Positions 1-58,767 of a stretch of DNA of 58,767 nucleotides are shown here, piece after piece. A model generated the notes under the pieces. It did not search any database, was not told the DNA's origin, and saw only the letters and a list, made by a program, of their open reading frames with translations. Every line of letters starts with the position of its first letter. Positions within the stretch are counted from its first letter, which is position 1. This DNA comes from Synechococcus sp. RedBA-s. Lineage in GTDB: Bacteria > Cyanobacteriota > Cyanobacteriia > PCC-6307 > Cyanobiaceae. Location of the stretch: NCBI RefSeq assembly GCF_024345495.1, contig NZ_JAGQBF010000019.1:1-58767 (forward strand). The letters are read 5' to 3'. The translations under genes were made by a program, and so were the position numbers.

Positions 1-302
1 CGGCGCAGCAACGGCTGGAGCTGATCCAGGAGCGCAGCCACCAGCTCTGGCATGGGCTTACCCAGCTGCCGGGCGTGCATCCCCTTCTGGAGGTGCCGCC
101 ACCGGCAGGCCTGGTGAGCTTCGTGGTGGAGGGAGTGGCTCCAGGGGATCTGGTGCATCAGCTGGGGCAGCGGGCCATCTGGCTACGCACCCTCGACGAT
201 CCCCACTGCCTCAGGGCCTGCACCCACATCACCACCACAGGCGAAGAGGTGGAGCTGCTGCTCGATGCCCTGGCCGAACTCAGCAGCCTGGGCCGGCCCT
301 GA
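1..302 (+). CDS. Class V aminotransferase / cysteine-desulfurase-like protein, C-terminal end only
   Basis: The reading frame is open from the window edge (first full codon at base 3) to a TGA at 300-302, so only about the last 99 residues are present. The segment IWLRTLDDPHCLRACTHI followed by TTTGEEVELLLDAL is the typical C-terminal small-domain ending of PLP-dependent class V aminotransferases such as isopenicillin-N-epimerase-like and cysteine-desulfurase-like proteins, where the R-x-C-x-H region closes over the active site. The PLP-binding lysine lies upstream, outside the window, so substrate cannot be judged. Family assignment is by motif recognition only. Confidence 0.7.
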   Translation, partial: AQQRLELIQERSHQLWHGLTQLPGVHPLLEVPPPAGLVSFVVEGVAPGDLVHQLGQRAIWLRTLDDPHCLRACTHITTTGEEVELLLDALAELSSLGRP

Positions 303-382
303 CCCGGAGCACCAGTTGCTCAACCTTGGCTGTCAGGCCGGAGGAAGGCGATCAGACTGATCCAGTCGTCGTGTCTCCTGCC

Positions 383-688
383 ATGCGTCCCCTTCCCCTG
401 ACGATCCACCCGGGCTTGTCACTGCTGGGTGCGGCATTCCTCGGTGCCTCCTGTCTCGTGGCATCGACCACACCGGCCTGGGGCAGTCCGGCCAGTCTCA
501 CTCCGCCCCTCGAAGGAACCCAGGCGCCAGGGAGCGAAAAGGAATCACCCTATGCCGCTCCCAAGGAGACCATCGCCTCTGCCCCCTTGGTCAACACCGG
601 CAAGCTCTGGGCCCTGCTGGTGCCGATCACGCTGGCCACAGGCAGCTACCTGGTGCTGCGCAGCCGTGAAGACAAGGAAGAGGCCTGA
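383..688 (+). CDS. Small secreted or membrane-anchored hypothetical protein
   Basis: A 101-residue ORF. I chose the ATG at 383 because an N-terminal signal-like segment follows (hydrophobic LSLLGAAFLGASCLVA around residues 11-26, then an A-W-G possible cleavage site). A TTG 57 bases upstream is also in frame. A low-complexity proline/serine middle leads to a second hydrophobic stretch (LWALLVPITLATGSYLVL, about residues 75-92) and a charged C-terminus (SREDKEEA). The layout suggests an inner- or thylakoid-membrane protein with one C-terminal anchor. I do not recognise a family. It ends 4 bases before the convergent aquaporin gene. Confidence 0.5.
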   Translation: MRPLPLTIHPGLSLLGAAFLGASCLVASTTPAWGSPASLTPPLEGTQAPGSEKESPYAAPKETIASAPLVNTGKLWALLVPITLATGSYLVLRSREDKEEA

Positions 689-692
689 GCAC

Positions 693-1433
693 TCAGTCGC
701 TGCGACCATCCAGCAGGTAACGCTGCACCCAGCCGGCCAGCAGGGCGCCGGCAATGGGCGCTAGCCAGAACAGCCACAGCTGGCCAACGGCATCGCCGCC
801 CACCCAGAAGGCCACGCCGGTGCTGCGGGCCGGGTTCACTGAGGTGTTGGTGACCGGAATGCTGATCAGGTGAATCAGCGTCAGCGACAAACCGATCGGA
901 ACGCCGGCCAGGTCCTTGATCGCATCCCGGTGGGTGGTGCCAAGAATCACCAGCAGGAAGATGAAGGTGAGGACCACTTCGATCACCAGAGCCGGCAGCA
1001 ATCCGTAGCCACCGGGTGAGTGGGCCCCGAACCCGTTGGTCGCCAGGGGGTTGCTGCCGGTCAGCGCGAAGCCGGGTCGACCACTGGCGATGCCGAAGAG
1101 CAGTCCGCCGGCGATCAGGCCCCCCAGCACCTGAGCGACGATGTAGGGAAGCAGCTGTGAGCCTGGATGGCGGCCGCTCGCCCAGAGGCCGAAGGTGACG
1201 GCGGGGTTGATGTGGCAGCCAGAGATGTGGCCGATGGTGTAAGCCATCGTGAGCAGGGTGAGGCCGAAGGCCAGCGATACCCCAAGGAAACCAAGACCCA
1301 GAGGATTGGCCTCGGCCTGGGCGTAGGGGAAGACGGCGGCCAGCACAGCACTGCCACAGCCGCCGAACACCAGCCAGAAGGTGCCGATCAGTTCAGCGAG
1401 GAACTTCCTCGACAAGGGCACGGGCGAAGCCAT
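693..1433 (-). CDS. aqpZ: Aquaporin Z-like water channel
   Basis: A 246-residue MIP-family channel, the usual length for AqpZ, facilitating rapid water movement across the cytoplasmic membrane. Both pore half-helices are visible: [14 protein letters not shown] near residues 68-81 and [11 protein letters not shown] near residue 200. Each carries the NPA box, the second followed by the selectivity-filter arginine. Six hydrophobic segments surround them. The residue set (H in the fifth helix region, R after the second NPA) fits a water-selective rather than glycerol-type pore. The gene sits alone between convergent and codirectional neighbours, 95 bases downstream of the murE stop. Confidence 0.93.
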
Positions 1434-49100: not shown

Positions 49101-50218
49101 TCGACCGGTTGATCGAGCGCCAGAAGGCCGAGCAGGGCACCTGGCCCGAAACGATCGCCTGCGTGCTCTGGGGCACCGACAACATCAAAACCTACGGCGA
49201 ATCCCTCGCCCAGATCCTCTGGTTCATCGGTGTGCGTCCCGTGCCCGATTCGCTTGGTCGGGTCAACAAGCTGGAGCTTCTTTCCCTGGAGGAGCTGGGG
49301 CGCCCCCGCATCGACGTGGTGGTGAACTGCAGCGGTGTGTTCCGCGATCTGTTCATCAACCAGATGGGTCTGATCGATCAGGGAGTGAAGATGGCCGCTG
49401 AGGCCGATGAGCCCCTGGAGCTGAACTTCGTGCGCAAGCACTCCCAGGAGCAGGCGGCGGCGCAGGGCATCAGCCTGCGTGAGGCGGCCACCCGGGTGTT
49501 CTCCAATGCCAGCGGAAGCTATTCCTCAAATGTGAACCTGGCAGTGGAGAACAGCACCTGGGAGGAGGAAGGAGAACTGCAGGAGATGTACCTCTCGCGC
49601 AAAACCTTCGCCTTCAACGCCGACAACCCCGGTGAGATGAACCAGAACCGCGAGGTGTTCGAATCGGCGATGAAAACCGCCGATGTCACCTTCCAGAACC
49701 TGGATTCCGCTGAGATCTCGCTCACCGATGTGAGCCACTACTTCGACTCCGACCCCACCAAGCTGATTGCCGGCCTGCGCGATGACGGCAAAGCCCCCAC
49801 CAGCTACATCGCCGACACCACCACCGCCAACGCCCAGGTGCGGAGCCTGAGCGAAACGATTCGGCTGGATTCACGCACCAAGCTGCTCAATCCCAAGTGG
49901 TACGAGGGCATGCTCGATTCCGGCTATGAGGGCGTTCGTGAGGTGGCCAAACGTCTCAACTTCACCCTGGGCTGGAGCGCCACCAGCGGCGCCGTCGATA
50001 ACTTCGTGTACGAGGAGGCCAACGACACCTTCATCAACGATGAGGAGATGCGCAAGCGGCTGATGGAGCTCAACCCCCACAGCTTCCGCCGCATCGTCGG
50101 CACCCTGCTGGAAGTGAATGGCCGCGGCTACTGGGACACCAGCGAGGAAAACATCGCCCAGCTCCAGGAGATCTACCAGGAGATCGAAGACCGGATCGAG
50201 GGCGTCACCGCCCCCTGA
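46196..50218 (+). CDS. chlH: Magnesium chelatase subunit H
   Basis: 1340 residues, the normal size. Porphyrin-binding catalytic subunit that with ChlI and ChlD inserts magnesium into protoporphyrin IX, the first committed step of chlorophyll synthesis. After a ~25-residue variable start, [20 protein letters not shown] begins the conserved protein. Later signatures include [100 protein letters not shown] and [18 protein letters not shown]. The ATG at 46196 is the only good start. The cobalt-chelatase homologue CobN is less likely because of the full-length chlorophyll-type N-terminus. Confidence 0.97.
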
Positions 50219-50223
50219 GGGGC
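50210..50223. terminator. Compact GC hairpin at the chlH / GST convergent junction
   Basis: GCCCC (50210-50214) and GGGGC (50219-50223) enclose CTGA, which contains part of the chlH stop; the minus-strand gene ends at the same place. With no T-run it is a weak candidate terminator serving both strands. Confidence 0.35.
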
Positions 50224-51176
50224 TACATCCAGTCGATCAGGGGCCCCGCCGGCACCACGCCGGAGGGGTTGATGCTGGGGTGGCTCTGGTAGTAGTGCCC
50301 CTTGATGTGCTGCATGTTCACGGTCTCGGCCACCCCCGGGACGCCGTAGAGCTCCCGCACATAGCGGCTGAGGTTGGGATAATCGGCGATGCGGCGCAGG
50401 TTGCACTTGAAGTGGCCCACATAGACCGGATCAAAGCGCAACAGGGTGGTGAACAGCCGCCAGTCGGCTTCGGTGAGCCGGTTGCCCAGCAGGTAAGGTT
50501 GATCCGCCAGCCGCAGCTCCAGCACATCAAGGCTGGTGAACAGCGGTTGGATGGCCTCGTCGTAGGCCTCCTGGCTAGTGGCGAAACCGCAGCGGTAAAC
50601 GCCGTTGTTCACCGTGTCGTAGATGCGCTGGTTGATCCGATCAATCTCCTCCCAGAGGTCCTTGGGGTAGTAGTCGCCGGGAGCGGCGCCAAGGCCATCA
50701 AAGGCACTGTTGAACATGCGGATAATCTCCGAGGATTCGTTGTTCACGATCTGCCCAGTCGCCCTGTCCCACAGCACCGGCACCGTCACCCGGCCGCTGT
50801 AGTGCGGATCGGTGCCCGTATAGACCTCGTGCAGCACCTGAGCGTGGTGAATCGGGTCGGTGATCACGCCATCGCCCGGCTGGAAGGTCCAGCCCTGCTC
50901 GCCCATGTACCAGTGCACCACGGAGAGCGACACCATCCGGGCCAGCCCCTTGATGCTGCGGAAGATGGCGGTGCGATGGGCCCAGGGGCAGGCATGGGAA
51001 ATGTAGAGGTGATAGCGATCCGCTTCGGCGGCAAATCCGCCGTCGCCGCTGGGGCCGGGCCGGCCATCCGGTGTGATCCAGTGGCGGAACTGCGAGCTGG
51101 AGCGGATGAAGCGGCCGCCGTTGCTGCTGGTGTCGTACCACTGGTCGTGCCAGACCCCATCAATCAGCAATCCCAC
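50223..51176 (-). CDS. Glutathione S-transferase of the glutathionyl-hydroquinone reductase type
   Basis: 317 residues. The thioredoxin-fold domain has YHLYISHACPWAHRTAIFRS, with the C-P-W-A-H active site typical of the Xi class, which removes glutathione from glutathionyl-hydroquinones. VNNESSEIIRMFNSAFDGLG and the helical domain (EEIDRINQRIYDTVNNGVYR, LGNRLTEADWRLFTTLLRFD) complete the standard architecture; VYVGHFKCNLRRIADYPNL is highly typical. It probably protects quinone pools. The ATG at 51176 is next to the break point of a truncated dehydrogenase gene. Confidence 0.92.
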   Translation of the reverse strand: MGLLIDGVWHDQWYDTSSNGGRFIRSSSQFRHWITPDGRPGPSGDGGFAAEADRYHLYISHACPWAHRTAIFRSIKGLARMVSLSVVHWYMGEQGWTFQPGDGVITDPIHHAQVLHEVYTGTDPHYSGRVTVPVLWDRATGQIVNNESSEIIRMFNSAFDGLGAAPGDYYPKDLWEEIDRINQRIYDTVNNGVYRCGFATSQEAYDEAIQPLFTSLDVLELRLADQPYLLGNRLTEADWRLFTTLLRFDPVYVGHFKCNLRRIADYPNLSRYVRELYGVPGVAETVNMQHIKGHYYQSHPSINPSGVVPAGPLIDWM

Positions 51177-51223
51177 GCCTGCACTCCAACGGCGCCCACC
51201 GTAACCAGAGAGGGCATGGGAAG

Positions 51224-51580
51224 GTGATCAACATCTCGTCGATCGGGGCCTTCATTGGCAGCCCAGGACTGGGCGTCTATGCCGCCTCCAAAGCAGCCCT
51301 CAGCCAACTCACCAGAACCATGTCCGTTGAATGGGGGCCCTCCAATATTCAGGTGAATGCTCTCTGCCCCACGGTGACTCTGACCCAGATTGGCCATGAC
51401 ACCTGGGATGATCCTGCGATGGCAGAGGCCAGAAAAAACAAGGAAAAAAGAATTCCACTGCAGCGCTTTGGGGAGCCCAGAGAAGTGGCCAATGTGGCCC
51501 TGTTTCTGGCCAGTGCAGCCTCCTATTTCATCCAGGACGTTTCGCTCTCTTTGGATGGCGGCATGATCATTGCACCCTAA
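51224..51580 (+). pseudogene. 5'-truncated short-chain dehydrogenase/reductase
   Basis: The frame encodes only the C-terminal half of a classical SDR: KVINISSIGAF (catalytic serine), YAASKAALSQLTRTMSVEW (Tyr-x-x-x-Lys), VNALCPT, RFGEPREVANVALFLAS and ISLDGG-like SLSLDGGMIIAP. The cofactor-binding T-G-x-x-x-G-I-G half is missing; homology seems to begin near 51197, a few bases from the divergent GST start. Base composition is less GC-rich than the neighbours. A 118-residue product could be made from GTG 51224 but cannot bind NAD(P). Probably a remnant left by a deletion. Confidence 0.8.
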
Positions 51581-51683
51581 TCAACACAGCAGTTTGCCTC
51601 CAATCCTGGAGCGGGTCTGCCGCTACGGATTGTGTTGGGAATCGGTTCACGGCGGCGCTGCTGCATACGGTCGAGATGGGTGA

Positions 51684-53933
<2,250 letters not shown>

Positions 53934-53943
53934 AGCACCCCCC

Positions 53944-54837
53944 CTAGGAGGGGCGGACGATGGCGTCCAGCATCCGGGCGGTCTGCGCGATCGGACCCAC
54001 ATCGTGCACCCGCAGCACATCGGCGCCCTGGGTGATCGCCTGGGCGCAGACCGCCGCCGTGCCCCACAGCCGGGCGCGGGGCCGGGGTTCATCCAGCACC
54101 GCGCCGATGAAGCGTTTGCGCGAAGGGCCCACCAGCAGGGGGAACCCGTCGCGGCGCAGCTCGGCGAGCCCTCGCAGCAGGGCGAGGTTGTGCTCGGTGG
54201 TCTTGGCGAAGCCCAGCCCCGGATCCCAGATCAGCTGATCAGTCCGAACGCCCGCCGCCAGGGCGTTGTCGGTGGCACGCAGCAACTCCTGGCGCACCTC
54301 GGCCACCACATCGCTGTAATGCGCCAGCCCATCCATGCTGCCGCTGTCGCCGCGGCTGTGCATCAGCACATAGGGGCAGCCATGCTCCGCCACCACCGCC
54401 AGGATCTCGGGATCGCGCCGGCCGCCGCTAACATCATTGATCCAGTGGGCTCCGGCCGCCAGGGCAGCGGCGGCCACCGGGGCCCGGAAGGTGTCGATCG
54501 AGAGCAGCGGGCCGCCTGGCAGGGCGTCGGCCGAATTCACGCAGCTGCTCTCGGCGCAGGCCGTGCGGATCAGCTCCAGGGCCGGCAACAGCCGCTGCAG
54601 CTCCTGCTCGGCGCTGATCACAGCCGCCCCCGGCCTGGTGCTCTGGCCACCGAGATCCAGCAGATCCGCCCCCTGGGCCAGCATCGCCCGGGCCTGAGCC
54701 AGGGCGGCGGCGGGCCGATCAAAGCGGCCGCCATCACTGAAGGAATCAGGGGTGAGGTTGATCACCCCCATCACGTAGGTGCGGGAGCCCCAGGGCAGGG
54801 CGGCCCCTGGCTCCGTCGATGCTCTGCTGGAGGCCAT
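53944..54837 (-). CDS. folP: Dihydropteroate synthase
   Basis: 297 residues. TIM-barrel enzyme joining p-aminobenzoate to the pterin in folate synthesis, target of sulfonamides. YVMGVINLTPDSFSDGGRFD is the pterin-binding signature; GADLLDLGGQSTRPGA follows, then INDVSGGRRDPEIL, VLMHSRGDSGSMDGL, IWDPGLGFAKTTEHNLALL and VGPSRKRFIG. The folate pathway gene folC is also in this window but distant. The last residues meet the katG stop in a G/C-rich spacer. Confidence 0.95.
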   Translation of the reverse strand: MASSRASTEPGAALPWGSRTYVMGVINLTPDSFSDGGRFDRPAAALAQARAMLAQGADLLDLGGQSTRPGAAVISAEQELQRLLPALELIRTACAESSCVNSADALPGGPLLSIDTFRAPVAAAALAAGAHWINDVSGGRRDPEILAVVAEHGCPYVLMHSRGDSGSMDGLAHYSDVVAEVRQELLRATDNALAAGVRTDQLIWDPGLGFAKTTEHNLALLRGLAELRRDGFPLLVGPSRKRFIGAVLDEPRPRARLWGTAAVCAQAITQGADVLRVHDVGPIAQTARMLDAIVRPS

Positions 54838-54945
54838 CGTCGGCGCTGCCGTTGGCGCTATCCATCCTCAGCCCCCGCCACCCGGGCCTGGGCTCCATGG
54901 GAAACTGAGCAGGTCGCTGGCCCCACGGGCCGATGGCAGGCCCCT

Positions 54946-55030
54946 GGAGGGGTGGTCGAGTGGTTGATGGCTCCGGTCTTGAAAACCGGCGAAGGGAAAC
55001 CTTCCGCGGGTTCGAATCCCGCCCCCTCCG
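54946..55030 (+). tRNA. tRNA-Ser(TGA)
   Basis: Acceptor stem GGAGGGG (54946-54952) pairs with CCCCTCC (55023-55029), discriminator G at 55030. Anticodon arm CCGGT-CTTGAAA-ACCGG gives TGA. The variable arm GCGAAGGGAAACCTTCCGC has the class II stem expected for serine. T-loop GTTCGAATC. No CCA. The sequence character changes directly after its 3' end, the usual attachment point of integrative elements. Confidence 0.96.
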
Positions 55031-55124
55031 TTGATAACTCAGGAAAACCTGAAACGCAGGGATGCCGCCAAGGGAAGGGAAGCAGGGAAATTCTATAGGA
55101 AAACTTCCCTCGGAAAAGGACTAA

Positions 55125-55169
55125 ATGGCATTAGATGAACTTATTGCTAGGACCAATCGCAGGTCATAG
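55125..55169 (+). pseudogene. 5' remnant of a tyrosine-recombinase integrase gene
   Basis: AAGGA 5-9 bases upstream leads to ATG 55125 and the 14 codons MALDELIARTNRRS, then TAG. The M-x-L-D-x-L-I-x-x-x-N-x-R-L beginning is what I recognise from cyanobacterial tRNA-associated integrases, which normally start within about 100 bases of the tRNA, as here (95 bases). Nothing integrase-like continues after the stop in any frame, so the rest appears deleted. The match is short, so this is a suggestion rather than proof. Confidence 0.45.
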
Positions 55170-55305
55170 CTGCAGCCCTGGGGAGGTTCATATGTTGTTG
55201 AGTTCAGCCAAAGGAGCCGAGACACTTGACCCTCCGTCCCTTGAGTTCCTTGGCCCATGACGGACAGGAGCAGCAAAATAGCCGGCCATGCCAAAGCGCA
55301 TGTCG

Positions 55306-55319
55306 TTAAAAGCTTTTAA
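55306..55319. repeat. 14-bp perfect palindrome TTAAAAGCTTTTAA
   Basis: Perfect dyad in a gene-free stretch of the element. Such AT-rich dyads can be regulator or replication-protein sites; no partner copy was seen. The surrounding 55170-55386 contains no gene I can support apart from a 22-codon ORF (55192-55260) behind a GGAGG. Confidence 0.6.
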
Positions 55320-55368
55320 GTCAGAAAGGTGTCAGCAACAGCGCCTTTCCACTCCTATATCCTAGCGC

Positions 55369-55384
55369 CCCTCAGCGCTGAGGG
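55369..55384. repeat. 16-bp perfect palindrome CCCTCAGCGCTGAGGG
   Basis: Perfect dyad ending 2 bases before the ATG of the 49-codon ORF. Its right arm supplies GAGGG, a possible ribosome binding site, so the hairpin could occlude translation. It could also be an operator or terminator without a T-run. Confidence 0.6.
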
Positions 55385-55386
55385 CT

Positions 55387-55536
55387 ATGCCTATAGAAAT
55401 CATTGACGATTCAGGTATCAATCAGCTTCACGGCACATATGGAGAGGAGGAACGGCACGAAATCAGTATGTCGCCATTCCCCCTGGCCAACGGCAGCAAG
55501 TTTCGCCCCGCTACATGTTGCTTCTATACCAACTAA
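55387..55536 (+). CDS. Candidate 49-residue protein of the element
   Basis: ATG 55387 opens MPIEIIDDSGINQLHGTYGE, continues through EERHEISMSPFPLANGSKFR and ends TCCFYTN before TAA. Codon use is more AT-rich than chromosomal neighbours, in line with the element. GAGGG in the preceding palindrome is the only ribosome-binding candidate. Its stop overlaps the end of the convergent DnaX-C-like gene. No family recognised; could be non-coding. Confidence 0.4.
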   Translation: MPIEIIDDSGINQLHGTYGEEERHEISMSPFPLANGSKFRPATCCFYTN

Positions 55537-55805
55537 GCCAAATTTCGATACTTTGCTGTAGGCTGAGCCCAGTACTCGATTACGCATTTGCAGCCGAGAA
55601 CTTGAGTAGCTGCATCCTGCAGAAGCTTGGAGTGGTCCCTAAGCATGCCTCACCATTATTCCGATATTTGAAGCAATAGCTTTGTTGGGTCGCCATCGGC
55701 TCCATAGAGAATAGTGACGAGTTTTGCTTGGTCCTTAAAGAGAAGCCGGGTGCTGGTGAGCGGGAGCGCCTCAAGCACAGAGGCCCAGGTTTCTTGAATT
55801 GTCAT
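55533..55805 (-). pseudogene. Free-standing DnaX (tau) C-terminal-domain-like gene with two in-frame stops
   Basis: From ATG 55805 the frame reads MTIQETWASVLEALPLTSTR, then LLFKDQAKLVTI, matching the W-x-x-V-L-x-x-L-x-x-x-S-T-R-x-L-L-x-x-Q-x-x-L signature at the start of the cyanobacterial tau C-terminal domain. After LLLQISE come TAA (55658-55656), TGG, TGA (55652-55650), then in the same frame GMLRDHSKLLQDAATQVLGC, matching the W-x-G-M ... LLxxAxxxxLG part. So a ~90-residue domain is present but broken at its conserved W/GM block. In DnaX this domain contacts the replicative polymerase. ATGA overlap couples it to the upstream 74-codon gene. Confidence 0.6.
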
Positions 55806-56026
55806 CGTTGATTGCTCCTGTAATTCCGACGCCTGGCATCCCTGCCCTGCTCTACAGCTTTGACCAAAGTCACACCAGTCATGACGCGGTGGGCTTCAAT
55901 CAATACATTGGCGCCCATTACCAGGACACCAAGGAATACGTTGTCAGCGCACCAGTCGCTTGCTTCTATGTCACTGGCAAGGTTTTGTTCCCATTCGTGT
56001 TGGAGTTTGACGGTTGAAATGCTCAT
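55802..56026 (-). CDS. Hypothetical 74-residue protein upstream of the DnaX-C-like gene
   Basis: ATG 56026 opens MSISTVKLQHEWEQNLASDI, followed by EASDWCADNVFLGVLVMGAN and VLIEAHRVMTGVTLVKAVEQ, ending with a basic RRRNYRSNQR. The frame is open further upstream, but the chosen start removes a low-quality extension. The middle could be a buried amphipathic helix. Its TGA overlaps the next ATG. No family recognised; the coupling suggests both products served the element's replication. Confidence 0.5.
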   Translation of the reverse strand: MSISTVKLQHEWEQNLASDIEASDWCADNVFLGVLVMGANVLIEAHRVMTGVTLVKAVEQGRDARRRNYRSNQR

Positions 56027-56281
56027 GGAGATGATGCATGAAAGCCGGGTGGAGTGGTAAGCGCCACTCAGCGGCATCGAGCCACCTTCGCCCTTCAAGT
56101 ATATCACGGGCCAAGGAAACGACAAGGCCTATCTGATTTGATTCTGTTTTCTTAGCTTAAGTATGTTACGGTATTCGTTTAGCACGGTGCTTCCTATTTT
56201 GCCTGTTTCGTTATAGAATACGGACAACCCTTCCGGCTTGGGGCAGCGCCTCCAAATCTCTACGCCGAAAGCACAGAAAAA

Positions 56282-56298
56282 GCTCCCTTGTGGGGAGC
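56282..56298 (-). terminator. Terminator-like hairpin with T-run on the minus strand
   Basis: GCTCCC (56282-56287) and GGGAGC (56293-56298) form a 6-base stem; on the minus strand it is followed by TTTTTCT. No minus-strand gene is seen to its right, so it may be a remnant or an attenuator before the plus-strand primase gene. The stretch 56027-56390 otherwise holds no gene I can support. Confidence 0.45.
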
Positions 56299-56390
56299 CG
56301 TTTCTAGCCGACCGAAGCCAGCCTGTATCGCTACACAGGATTCTAGCTTGTTGTCGGGGAAAGGAGAGCCCACTTCACGACCATTCCCCC

Positions 56391-58727
56391 ATGGAATCCG
56401 CATCCGCACTAAGCGGCGGCAGGGTCGGGCTCACGCCTCATCTAGCCGCACTCAGTCGTTTTGATCTTGTACCGGTCAACGGCTACAAAGTTCCAGTCCA
56501 CCCAAACCCGGCAGAACCGGCGGTGGGATGGCAATACAGATATTACAACCCTGAGTAGATTGCCGAAATATATCGGCACATGTCAGGGCAGTAGGCCTAC
56601 ATTGCGAGCGTAAAAACCTCTATGTAGTTGATCTGGACGGAAAGGCCGCCGTTGATCATGTAAAGGAAAAGGGCTGTGATCCCCTAGGACCTGATATTGG
56701 CTGGAGGATTTATCGGGTTGATGATGAAGGCACCTCCGTGGTTTATCGGTGGAAGATTCCATTCATCCTCACGCCAGAGCAGCAAGACCTCCTAGGTAGG
56801 ACCAAATTCAGCCTCGTATTGATTCCTGCCGACAAGGAAAAGGGAATCAAGCAGGAGGCCGTTGAATTTCTCGGCCATCACTGCCAAGCCGTTGCCCTCG
56901 GCGTTCATCCCGAAGGCGGCGGCTATCGCTGGTCCGGCCATCCCGATCGAATCGCCACATTGCCCGACAACTGGTTCCAGATGCTCGTTGAAGCCAAGGC
57001 CAAGGTCGAGGCCAAGAAGGCCGCAAACAAGCCAGCGGGGAGGGTCACAGACGGCACTCAGAGGGAGTTGCCGTGGGAGAGCCCGAAGCCAAAGTGCTGG
57101 ATATGCGGACGACCTGGCACCGGACTTAAGAGCGGTGATTGCCGTTCCGCCCGACGCAGCGATGGACGACTTGAGGTGCATTGCAGCCAAGGGCAGACCT
57201 ACGCACCGCCGAAAGGCCTAAGCCCTGGTGATGTAATCAAAGGCAACGACGACCAGAAATGGGCATATGTAGGCGAGAAACCTAACGGACTAGGAGATGG
57301 TCGCCTGTTTTCAATCTTTGTTATTCACCAACCTAAAGTCATGAATACTCCTGTTCGCACTATCAATTCTGCCGTTCCTGCCCTTCACGTTGCAGAGGCC
57401 CCTGAGGAAAGGGGAATAACACTCAGTCAGCTTCTTCCTCTTGATATCGCTAATGCCCTCAAGGAAGTCACCAAACACCTACCCTATGACGAGCATGTTG
57501 TTGGAATGAACTATCTCGCTGGCATCAGCGGCCTAGTCAAGCTAGGGACGCTTATCTGCGGTAATCAAATCACCAGTTACAACGTCCCTCCCAATCTCTA
57601 TATCGCAACGGTCGGGCGTTCAGGCCAGAAAAAGACACCACTTCATCAGCTAACGATCCGTAAGCCTGCTATTAACCTGCTCTCTCAGGTAGCCGATATC
57701 AACAGAGAGCTTTTTGAGGAATGGATAGCCGCCTGCAAGGACGCCAAGGAAGACGGGCGAGATAAGCCCAAACCGCCACCCAGAGTCTCCATTCATGTAT
57801 CTGATTACACAGGAGAGGCGCTTAATGCCCTACTCAGTGTTCTTGAAGGAAAGAAGAGGGGTCTATTGCTTACAAGGGATGAAATCTCTGGCCTGCTTTG
57901 CTCGATGAATGCCTATCGCAAAGGTCTAGGCGCTGACGCCCAGCAGCTCCTAGAAATCTATGACGGTCACGCCAGTAATGCCATTCGCATTAGCGGTGAT
58001 CGCTCCTACGAGCGCTGCCATGTGTCTATTCAAGGCAACATTCAGCCTGAGGTGTTGCGTGATCTCGTCAAAACTGGTGATCCTGATGGCAGATGGGCTC
58101 GATTCATGTTCCTTCCTATGAGGGAAATGACGTGTCCTTTGCCTACCCAGGTCAACGAAGAAACCATTGATGCTGTTCGTAGTGCTGAGACCGTCCTTCA
58201 GACCTATGCCTCCAGGGTGTTTCACCTGGAACCAGCTACCTATGAACTCGATCAGAGTGCCATTGAAGCCTTCTGTCGATACGGGCACCAGGCCCAGCCA
58301 GGGAACCTCTGATCAACTCTGGATCGGGGAATTGGGAACACTGCGATGCAATGAGTCTCGGCAGGGAAAGCCGACCCCAAGGAAGTTATTCAGAGCTTCC
58401 CTAGACGTACAGGAGGCGCCCAGCAGCGCTCATTGCGCACTGCTCGGCAAGAAAGCCGGTAAGGCTCTTCGTGTTGCTGGCCTGCTTCATATCCTCCAGG
58501 TCGTTTCTCCTGATATCCCTAGCCCGCCACGTATTTCACTTTCAACCCTCAACACTGCTATTGAAATGGTCGAGTTTCTTGATAGTTGGACCCTCAGCTT
58601 TCAAGGCGTAATTGAGGATGAGATGCAAGGCCCCCGGGTTCAGGAAAGATGTCACCCCTTTGATCCTTCCATCCGGGGGCTTGAGGACATGACCAATGCG
58701 CGGATACAGCGAGGCCGTCAAGGCTGA
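56391..58727 (+). pseudogene. Broken primase-polymerase / DUF3987 helicase gene of a mobile element
   Basis: Three frames must be joined. From ATG 56391 the start reads LTPHLAALSRFDLVPVNGYK and stops at TAG 56556-56558 inside EIAEIYRHM-like sequence. One base appears lost near 56591, after which VGLHCERKNLYVVDLDGKAA and later ILTPEQQDLLGRTKFSLVLI continue the primase-polymerase domain. CWICGRPG starts a zinc-finger-like motif. The DUF3987 part follows (LPYDEHVVGMNYLAGISGLV, TVGRSGQKKTPLHQL, LLTRDEISGLLCSMNAYRKG, GDPDGRWARFMFLP) to a stop at 58312. The end of the domain (GKKAGKALRVAGLLHILQVV, FLDSWTLSF) is in another frame up to 58727. Replication role is by family; this copy cannot make full-length protein. 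Confidence 0.8.
58358..58400 (+). repeat. Two small stem-loops in the junction of the broken DUF3987 gene
   Basis: TCGGC/GCCGA (58358-58362, 58370-58374) and GGAAG/CTTCC (58381-58385, 58396-58400) lie in a stretch of roughly 58300-58410 that does not look like DUF3987 protein in any frame. It may be a small insertion. Confidence 0.35.
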
Positions 58728-58767
58728 TGTGAGGAGGCGGATGAGCCCGCCGCACAGGCAGAGCGTG

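Follow-up and report, generated by a model that had tools for sequence, protein, structure and literature searches.

Tycheposons are tRNA-associated islands of picocyanobacteria, and phage capture of host replication proteins is an event of a known kind; a phage without a polymerase of its own needs that of its host. Recruitment of the host Pol III is also of a known kind. According to an excerpt of PMC6316719, phage SPP1 recruits the host replisome through its gp40 helicase, which binds the host DnaX.

We analysed a 58,767-nucleotide contig of Synechococcus sp. RedBA-s (this whole stretch is the window) that carries, near its end, a broken gene for a tau-like domain. The locus resembles the SPP1 system in that a replication module would gain access to the host Pol III holoenzyme by way of tau, a connection that is putative here. 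It differs in that gp40 binds the host tau whereas here the element itself encodes a tau-derived domain, and in that the SPP1 helicase is DnaB-type whereas here the viral contigs have a VapE-type helicase and the window a DUF3987 one. No lone tau domain borne by a phage or an island was seen in searches of openly licensed PubMed Central papers. We tentatively regard the window ORF, with somewhat less than even confidence, as what is left of a small accessory replication gene on an integrated picocyanobacterial element, the product of which would have acted as a replisome adaptor, a role proposed from sequence comparison.

The tau-like pseudogene and its element

The tau-like frame lies at 55533..55805 on the minus strand (90 codons) and, read from 55805 to 55533, translates as MTIQETWASVLEALPLTSTRLLFKDQ...ISE*W*GML...LLQDAATQVLG...NLA*. 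The initial annotation had described it as a tau C-terminal domain with nothing else attached and with two in-frame stops at the conserved W/GM block, and each of these points stood. The frame holds the domain only, and its conserved W is flanked by two stops, TAA (codon 50) and TGA (codon 52). With a profile that was built from 30 DnaX domains and excluded the window copy, the frame scored 44.9 bits (E = 3.6e-13), while the next separate place within the window reached 1.7 bits and the best of 40 simulated order-1 Markov windows 8.2 bits. The window copy scored 36.8 bits with a profile built from 16 free-standing copies, and matched DnaX of its own genome (a 633-aa frame on contig C1) at E = 1.1e-5. 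Residues 3-78 aligned to positions 445-514 of the 640 positions of the NCBIfam gamma/tau model NF011510 (E = 1.2e-7, 30.8 bits), far under a cut-off that is set for the whole protein, as expected of any lone domain. The Pfam model PF23007 gave the stop-masked copy 16.5 bits, below its cut-off of 27; the host's own DnaX and loci L060, L061, L057 and L075 were above this cut-off and L070, L072 and L052 below it. These comparisons confirmed, at the level of sequence, that the frame is a real relative of the cyanobacterial DnaX C-terminal KH-like domain.

Matches at E<=0.01 were obtained in 57 of 99 genomes (the own genome included), and their rows were DnaX-sized frames of 545-787 aa apart from the window copy and one further row in G012. 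The latter (contig C6, E = 0.0046) is antisense to an NlpC-like frame and was taken as chance. A model of the window copy with its stops read through, for which viral homologues supplied the alignment, folded as helix-helix-strand-strand-helix-helix-strand plus a low-confidence end, with a mean pLDDT of 86.3.

The pseudogene ends 501 bp from a tRNA-Ser(UGA) gene (54945..55031, plus strand; ARAGORN), across which GC drops from 0.673 in 50000-54944 to 0.526 in 55032-58767. Its start overlaps, as ATGA, the stop of a 74-aa ORF without significant family match (55802..56026, minus strand). Farther out and divergent, at 56391..58655 on the plus strand, lies a Prim-Pol plus DUF3987 primase-helicase pseudogene, so that the primase-helicase neighbour named in the initial annotation was indeed found. 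Compared with the intact 788-aa gene of Synechococcus sp. BSA11S (G008), it is in three pieces and two frames. Both the tau-like gene and the adjoining primase-helicase are dead in the window genome, and the tau-like frame is a pseudogene on a decayed low-GC mobile element that adjoins tRNA-Ser and runs off the contig end (55032..58767).

The edge of the element at this tRNA-Ser recurs in BSA11S, with 87% identity over window positions 54900-55295, and 72% identity resumes from 55860 on. By blastn, the intervening stretch with the tau-like gene was unmatched in BSA11S. A 62% identical homologue of the 74-aa ORF is retained there (L041:9974-10195, minus strand), though the adjoining tau-like stretch is not. 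With the BSA11S DUF3987 protein as query, no viral contig was matched, and among genome contigs BSA11S alone.

The description of the element as tRNA-bounded held for its near end, given by the tRNA-Ser gene and the GC drop, whereas we place the far end on contig C43 of the same genome by inference. C43 carries an identical second copy of the tRNA-Ser gene, in a 91-bp identical match to the window tRNA-Ser region (C43:995-1085). Beside it is an integrase-like frame (129-962, minus strand) with an Arm-DNA-bind_2 match at E = 0.027, below cut-off, and no NCBIfam row. C43 is probably the far end and continuation of the element. The tRNA-Ser edge, the low GC and the replication genes make the window element a candidate tycheposon; it is incomplete, its recombinase match is weak, and one tRNA edge is in the window while the other, on C43, is inferred.

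Six residues (W6, S17, Q24, Q25, W44 and R51 in L060) are the same in all 33 DnaX rows and all 16 free-standing rows. The window copy deviates at two of them, with D for the first Q and H for R. Its branch in the tree is very long (5.6) and its placement unsure, and it is more similar to DnaX domains (29-40% identity) than to the viral copies described below (21-29%). The long branch and the greater similarity to DnaX, together with its broken state, would suit a random dnaX fragment that moved with the element and was never a working gene, an explanation we consider very improbable for the window copy. It is a complete domain with its own start and stop and an ATGA overlap with the upstream ORF, it has no close DnaX source, and its layout is like that of intact viral copies. 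The resemblance is to their divergent arrangement, but in the window the 74-aa ORF intervenes on the tau strand. As a query, the window copy found no relative in viral contigs, none in genome contigs and no match in plasmids; among named phages it gave three Aeromonas phage rows only (E from 1 to 9), which were taken as noise. The defence library held nothing for the tau-like domain.

Intact free-standing copies and their neighbours

The domain occurs intact, without the rest of DnaX, in 14 IMG/VR contigs and two small cyanobacterial genomes (G434 and G562). Thirteen copies are 76-86 aa long, one is N-terminally extended (130 aa) and two are fused to a nuclease-like part (310 and 312 aa); 12 of the 14 viral contigs have an unfused gene of 76-86 aa. 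The viral scans returned two contigs with query A1 and 14 with A2, of which A3 recovered 13. Among the matches listed (best rows) for 400 genomes of the family, 360 genomes matched at E<=0.01 and six had two matches. In the own genome and G434 the second match was the free-standing copy. For G195 a second copy was rejected, both frames being DnaX-sized, and for G108 likewise, where the domain is split between two contigs; in G341 the additional match is partial and shares a contig with the first (L059). The G127 candidate (L052:589-2037, minus strand) is a 482-aa protein matching DnaX 368-535 (NF011510 E = 9.7e-21) and was set aside as probably a partial dnaX duplication. It has a short N-terminal hydrophobic segment before the DnaX-like stretch and a different C-terminal part. 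In the genus of G434, whose genomes are small (about 1.5-1.8 Mb when near complete), 162 of 200 genomes matched at E<=1e-8, and among the matches listed a second, free-standing match was present in G434 and G562. A few of the rows listed there are frames of 162-197 aa.

NF011510 matched ten intact free-standing, extended or fused copies at E from 7e-19 to 9.7e-13 (L060 1.4e-17, L061 2.8e-15, L057 2.9e-16), all under the whole-protein cut-off. The frames match its C-terminal region only, and AAA+ clamp-loader domains are absent from the window copy and from the intact copies. By sequence this is the same domain as the cyanobacterial DnaX C-terminal domain (PF23007; NF011510 about 445-515), and intact copies have the same six invariant residues. 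They differ from DnaX in being encoded by a small gene of their own without AAA+ domains, linker or A[DEN]FFNG tail. Two loci, L003 and L033, were dropped from the DnaX set as not being DnaX. Neither two intact copies tried against named phages nor one tried against plasmids gave a match, and in PHROGs no family covered L060 (best row E = 0.0047), L061 or L072. The fusions of the tau domain with a nuclease-like part lie at L044:182-1114 and L070:7406-8344; the L070 nuclease-like part gave a TnsA-like match below cut-off (E = 0.00023) and matched a PHROG named Holliday junction resolvase (E = 0.00016).

Purifying selection acts on the viral copies, as judged from dN/dS values of 0.15-0.58 in seven viral pairs, an eighth giving no measurable value; the pairs have sequences in common and do not count as independent. 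The L071-L072 pair was excluded for its differing lengths. On the tree the 16 free-standing rows correspond to three changes. Few forks are supported, and with the window copy left out of the tree the AU test did not reject a single clade of free-standing rows (p = 0.15); thus, multiple capture is not established.

The intact genes lie near helicase genes. In each of the 12 unfused viral contigs the tau stop marks the start of an SF2 helicase match, 11 times with a 4-bp overlap; the match is split in two in L110 (the contig to which L065 belongs), and L071 has no called long SF2 frame. On the other side, a Prim-Pol/PriCT_2/VapE match (domain names taken from L060) is divergent in 11 of 11 contigs with that side read, 204-211 bp off in ten, and is again two pieces in L110. 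The left flank of L065 was taken from L110; that of L069 is absent from the set. An ORF of 47-49 aa between the tau and primase genes was matched in 9 of 11, in L110 partly. A DnaB_C gene lies 412 bp downstream of the tau domain gene in G434, and about 2.7 kb off on the other strand in G562, where a tRNA-Ser gene is 5.5 kb off. The DnaB-type proteins of these two genomes match the DnaB model only from position 135 or 147. Within 6 kb, the G562 locus (L106:1798-7775) brings together tRNA-Ser(CGA), the DnaB-type gene, which lacks the N-terminal region, a short ORF weakly matching sigma-70 region 4 and the N-terminally extended tau domain. Intact homologues beside tRNA or DUF3987 genes, for which the initial annotation had proposed a search, were thus found in part: copies of 76-86 aa do occur in cyanophage-related contigs, and the domain occurs in the two genomes, near primase-helicase or DnaB-type genes, but DUF3987 linkage is seen in the window only, and neighbours elsewhere are VapE-type, SF2 or DnaB-type.

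Host affinity was judged from L061 and L060. The L061 terminase is closest to those of MED4-184, MED4-117, KBS-S-2A and S-H1 (Prochlorococcus and Synechococcus phages; 52.7-54.6%), and the L060 primase-helicase is closest to that of Synechococcus phage S-LBS1 (54.6% identical over 82% of the L060 protein), which is described in a passage of PMC6157547 as an integrase-bearing cyanosiphovirus. In S-LBS1, too, an SF2 helicase gene and a primase-polymerase gene akin to that of L060 are divergently arranged, but no tau-like gene lies between them or elsewhere in its record. The A3 profile found no match in six related named phage records including S-LBS1, while the six virus records searched alongside did match. 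A search for PolA and DnaE-type polymerases in 12 phage records, six of them named phages and six from among the 14 IMG/VR contigs, found neither, and the virus records may be fragments.

The last result bears on whether the domain could be a decoy that takes a replisome partner away from host DnaX and so slows replication of the host chromosome to the benefit of the element or phage. The gene sits in a replication module, and its product retains the globular face but has neither tail nor AAA+ clamp-loader part, as would be expected of a dominant-negative fragment. With no PolA or DnaE in the 12 records the host polymerase would be needed, which argues against such a role, and we judge it improbable.

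The missing tail, the fold and the partner

The initial annotation had stated that this domain binds the replicative polymerase, and as worded this did not hold. In E. coli tau500, according to passages of a study (eLife 2015, PMC4703070), the polymerase tail is bound by the C-terminal residues 622-643, and the fingers are a second contact site, touched by the globular domain. The E. coli tau C-terminal end is RRFFDAELDEESIRPI, which carries a similar but short motif. Near the end of host DnaX, A[DEN]FFNG is present in 28 of 30 frames and close variants in the remaining two; judging from its E. coli counterpart, this cyanobacterial tail may bind polymerase. The tail is absent from the free-standing copies. 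A looser tail pattern searched in six frames had no match in 17 of 18 loci scanned (L065 covering 525 bases) or in the window stretch, and its one match, in L057, lay outside the tau gene. Because the tail is absent from these copies and is the part that binds polymerase in E. coli, simple Pol III capture through it is unlikely. The interpretation in the initial annotation gained partial support, chiefly from copies outside the window; recruitment or diversion of the host replisome by such an element is hypothetical.

The fold was compared with a model of L060 (pLDDT 93.3). Its matches were DnaA domain I (4tps, Z 10.0), DciA (8a3v, Z 8.0) and E. coli tau (Z 7.6 and 6.9), with ribosomal rows between (Z 7-8) and a further KH-like match, 7ykm (Z 7.3). 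Since DnaA domain I and DciA rank above tau, with ribosomal rows interspersed, the fold does not decide the matter. By sequence, E. coli tau gave an hhalign probability under 1%, and 354 of 1000 shuffles reached its score; residue mapping to the fingers contact was therefore not used as evidence. A PDB sequence search with A1 gave no match. In a fold search of viral models, the sole match under E 0.001 was BFVD G9BWD0, a 148-aa viral protein without a name (E = 6e-5, TM 0.84, rmsd 1.3, 24% identity).

Parts of PMC9912922 (2023) describe a KH fold common to DciA, DnaA domain I and DnaX domain V, report that the latter two interact with DnaB, and mention a group of KH-only DciA homologues. The free-standing domain shares this fold class with DciA and DnaA domain I, and could in principle be a helicase loader or adaptor of their kind, a KH-like domain that holds and helps to load an element DnaB-type helicase or the host DnaB, with polymerase not a partner. 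We consider this unlikely, if less so than a decoy. The higher Z scores of DnaA domain I and DciA, the described DnaB contacts, the loss of the tail and the truncated DnaB-type gene near both genomic copies all suit it. The sequence is nevertheless that of DnaX, and unlike DciA the copies have no DUF721 row in Pfam at E<=0.1 (L060, L061, L072, L057, L075 and L070); the neighbours in viral contigs and the window are VapE, SF2 or DUF3987, not DnaB-type.

A putative adaptor to the replisome or helicase, acting through the globular face, fits best. The surviving tau-like face would dock on a host partner, either the Pol III alpha fingers or the replicative helicase, and a fork opened by the element's own primase-helicase would then be served by the host polymerase. 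Without the tail, the contact would be weak or shared with the neighbouring helicase, not a stable tether. The DnaX identity, the SF2 linkage (12/12), the divergent Prim-Pol/VapE gene (11/11), the similar divergent layout in the window, the DnaB_C genes near both genomic copies, the purifying selection, the six invariant residues, the lack of PolA and DnaE in the 12 records and the SPP1 precedent speak for this adaptor. The absent tail, a fold that does not single out tau, the missing sequence match to E. coli tau, the two deviating residues of the window copy, the six named relatives without the gene and the possibly fragmentary virus records speak against it. Mobile DNA may here reuse a piece of the host replication machine. 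If the adaptor reading is correct, cyanophages and islands recruit polymerase with a stolen host domain, instead of with a helicase that binds host tau, and the role of the globular tau domain is separable from that of the C-terminal tail and can be addressed with 76-aa proteins.

A wider version, which we put forward as possible but rather doubtful, is that the host tau KH domain was taken up, possibly more than once, by picocyanobacterial phages and islands and serves them as an independent plug linking unrelated helicases (VapE, DUF3987, truncated DnaB) to the host Pol III without a clamp loader or tail tether. If so, the globular domain of tau would have a separable function of its own. 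In a related cyanophage, Synechococcus phage S-H1, a gene annotated as DNA polymerase III beta subunit lies near the terminase (L098:1399-2448) and is possibly another tap on the host replisome.
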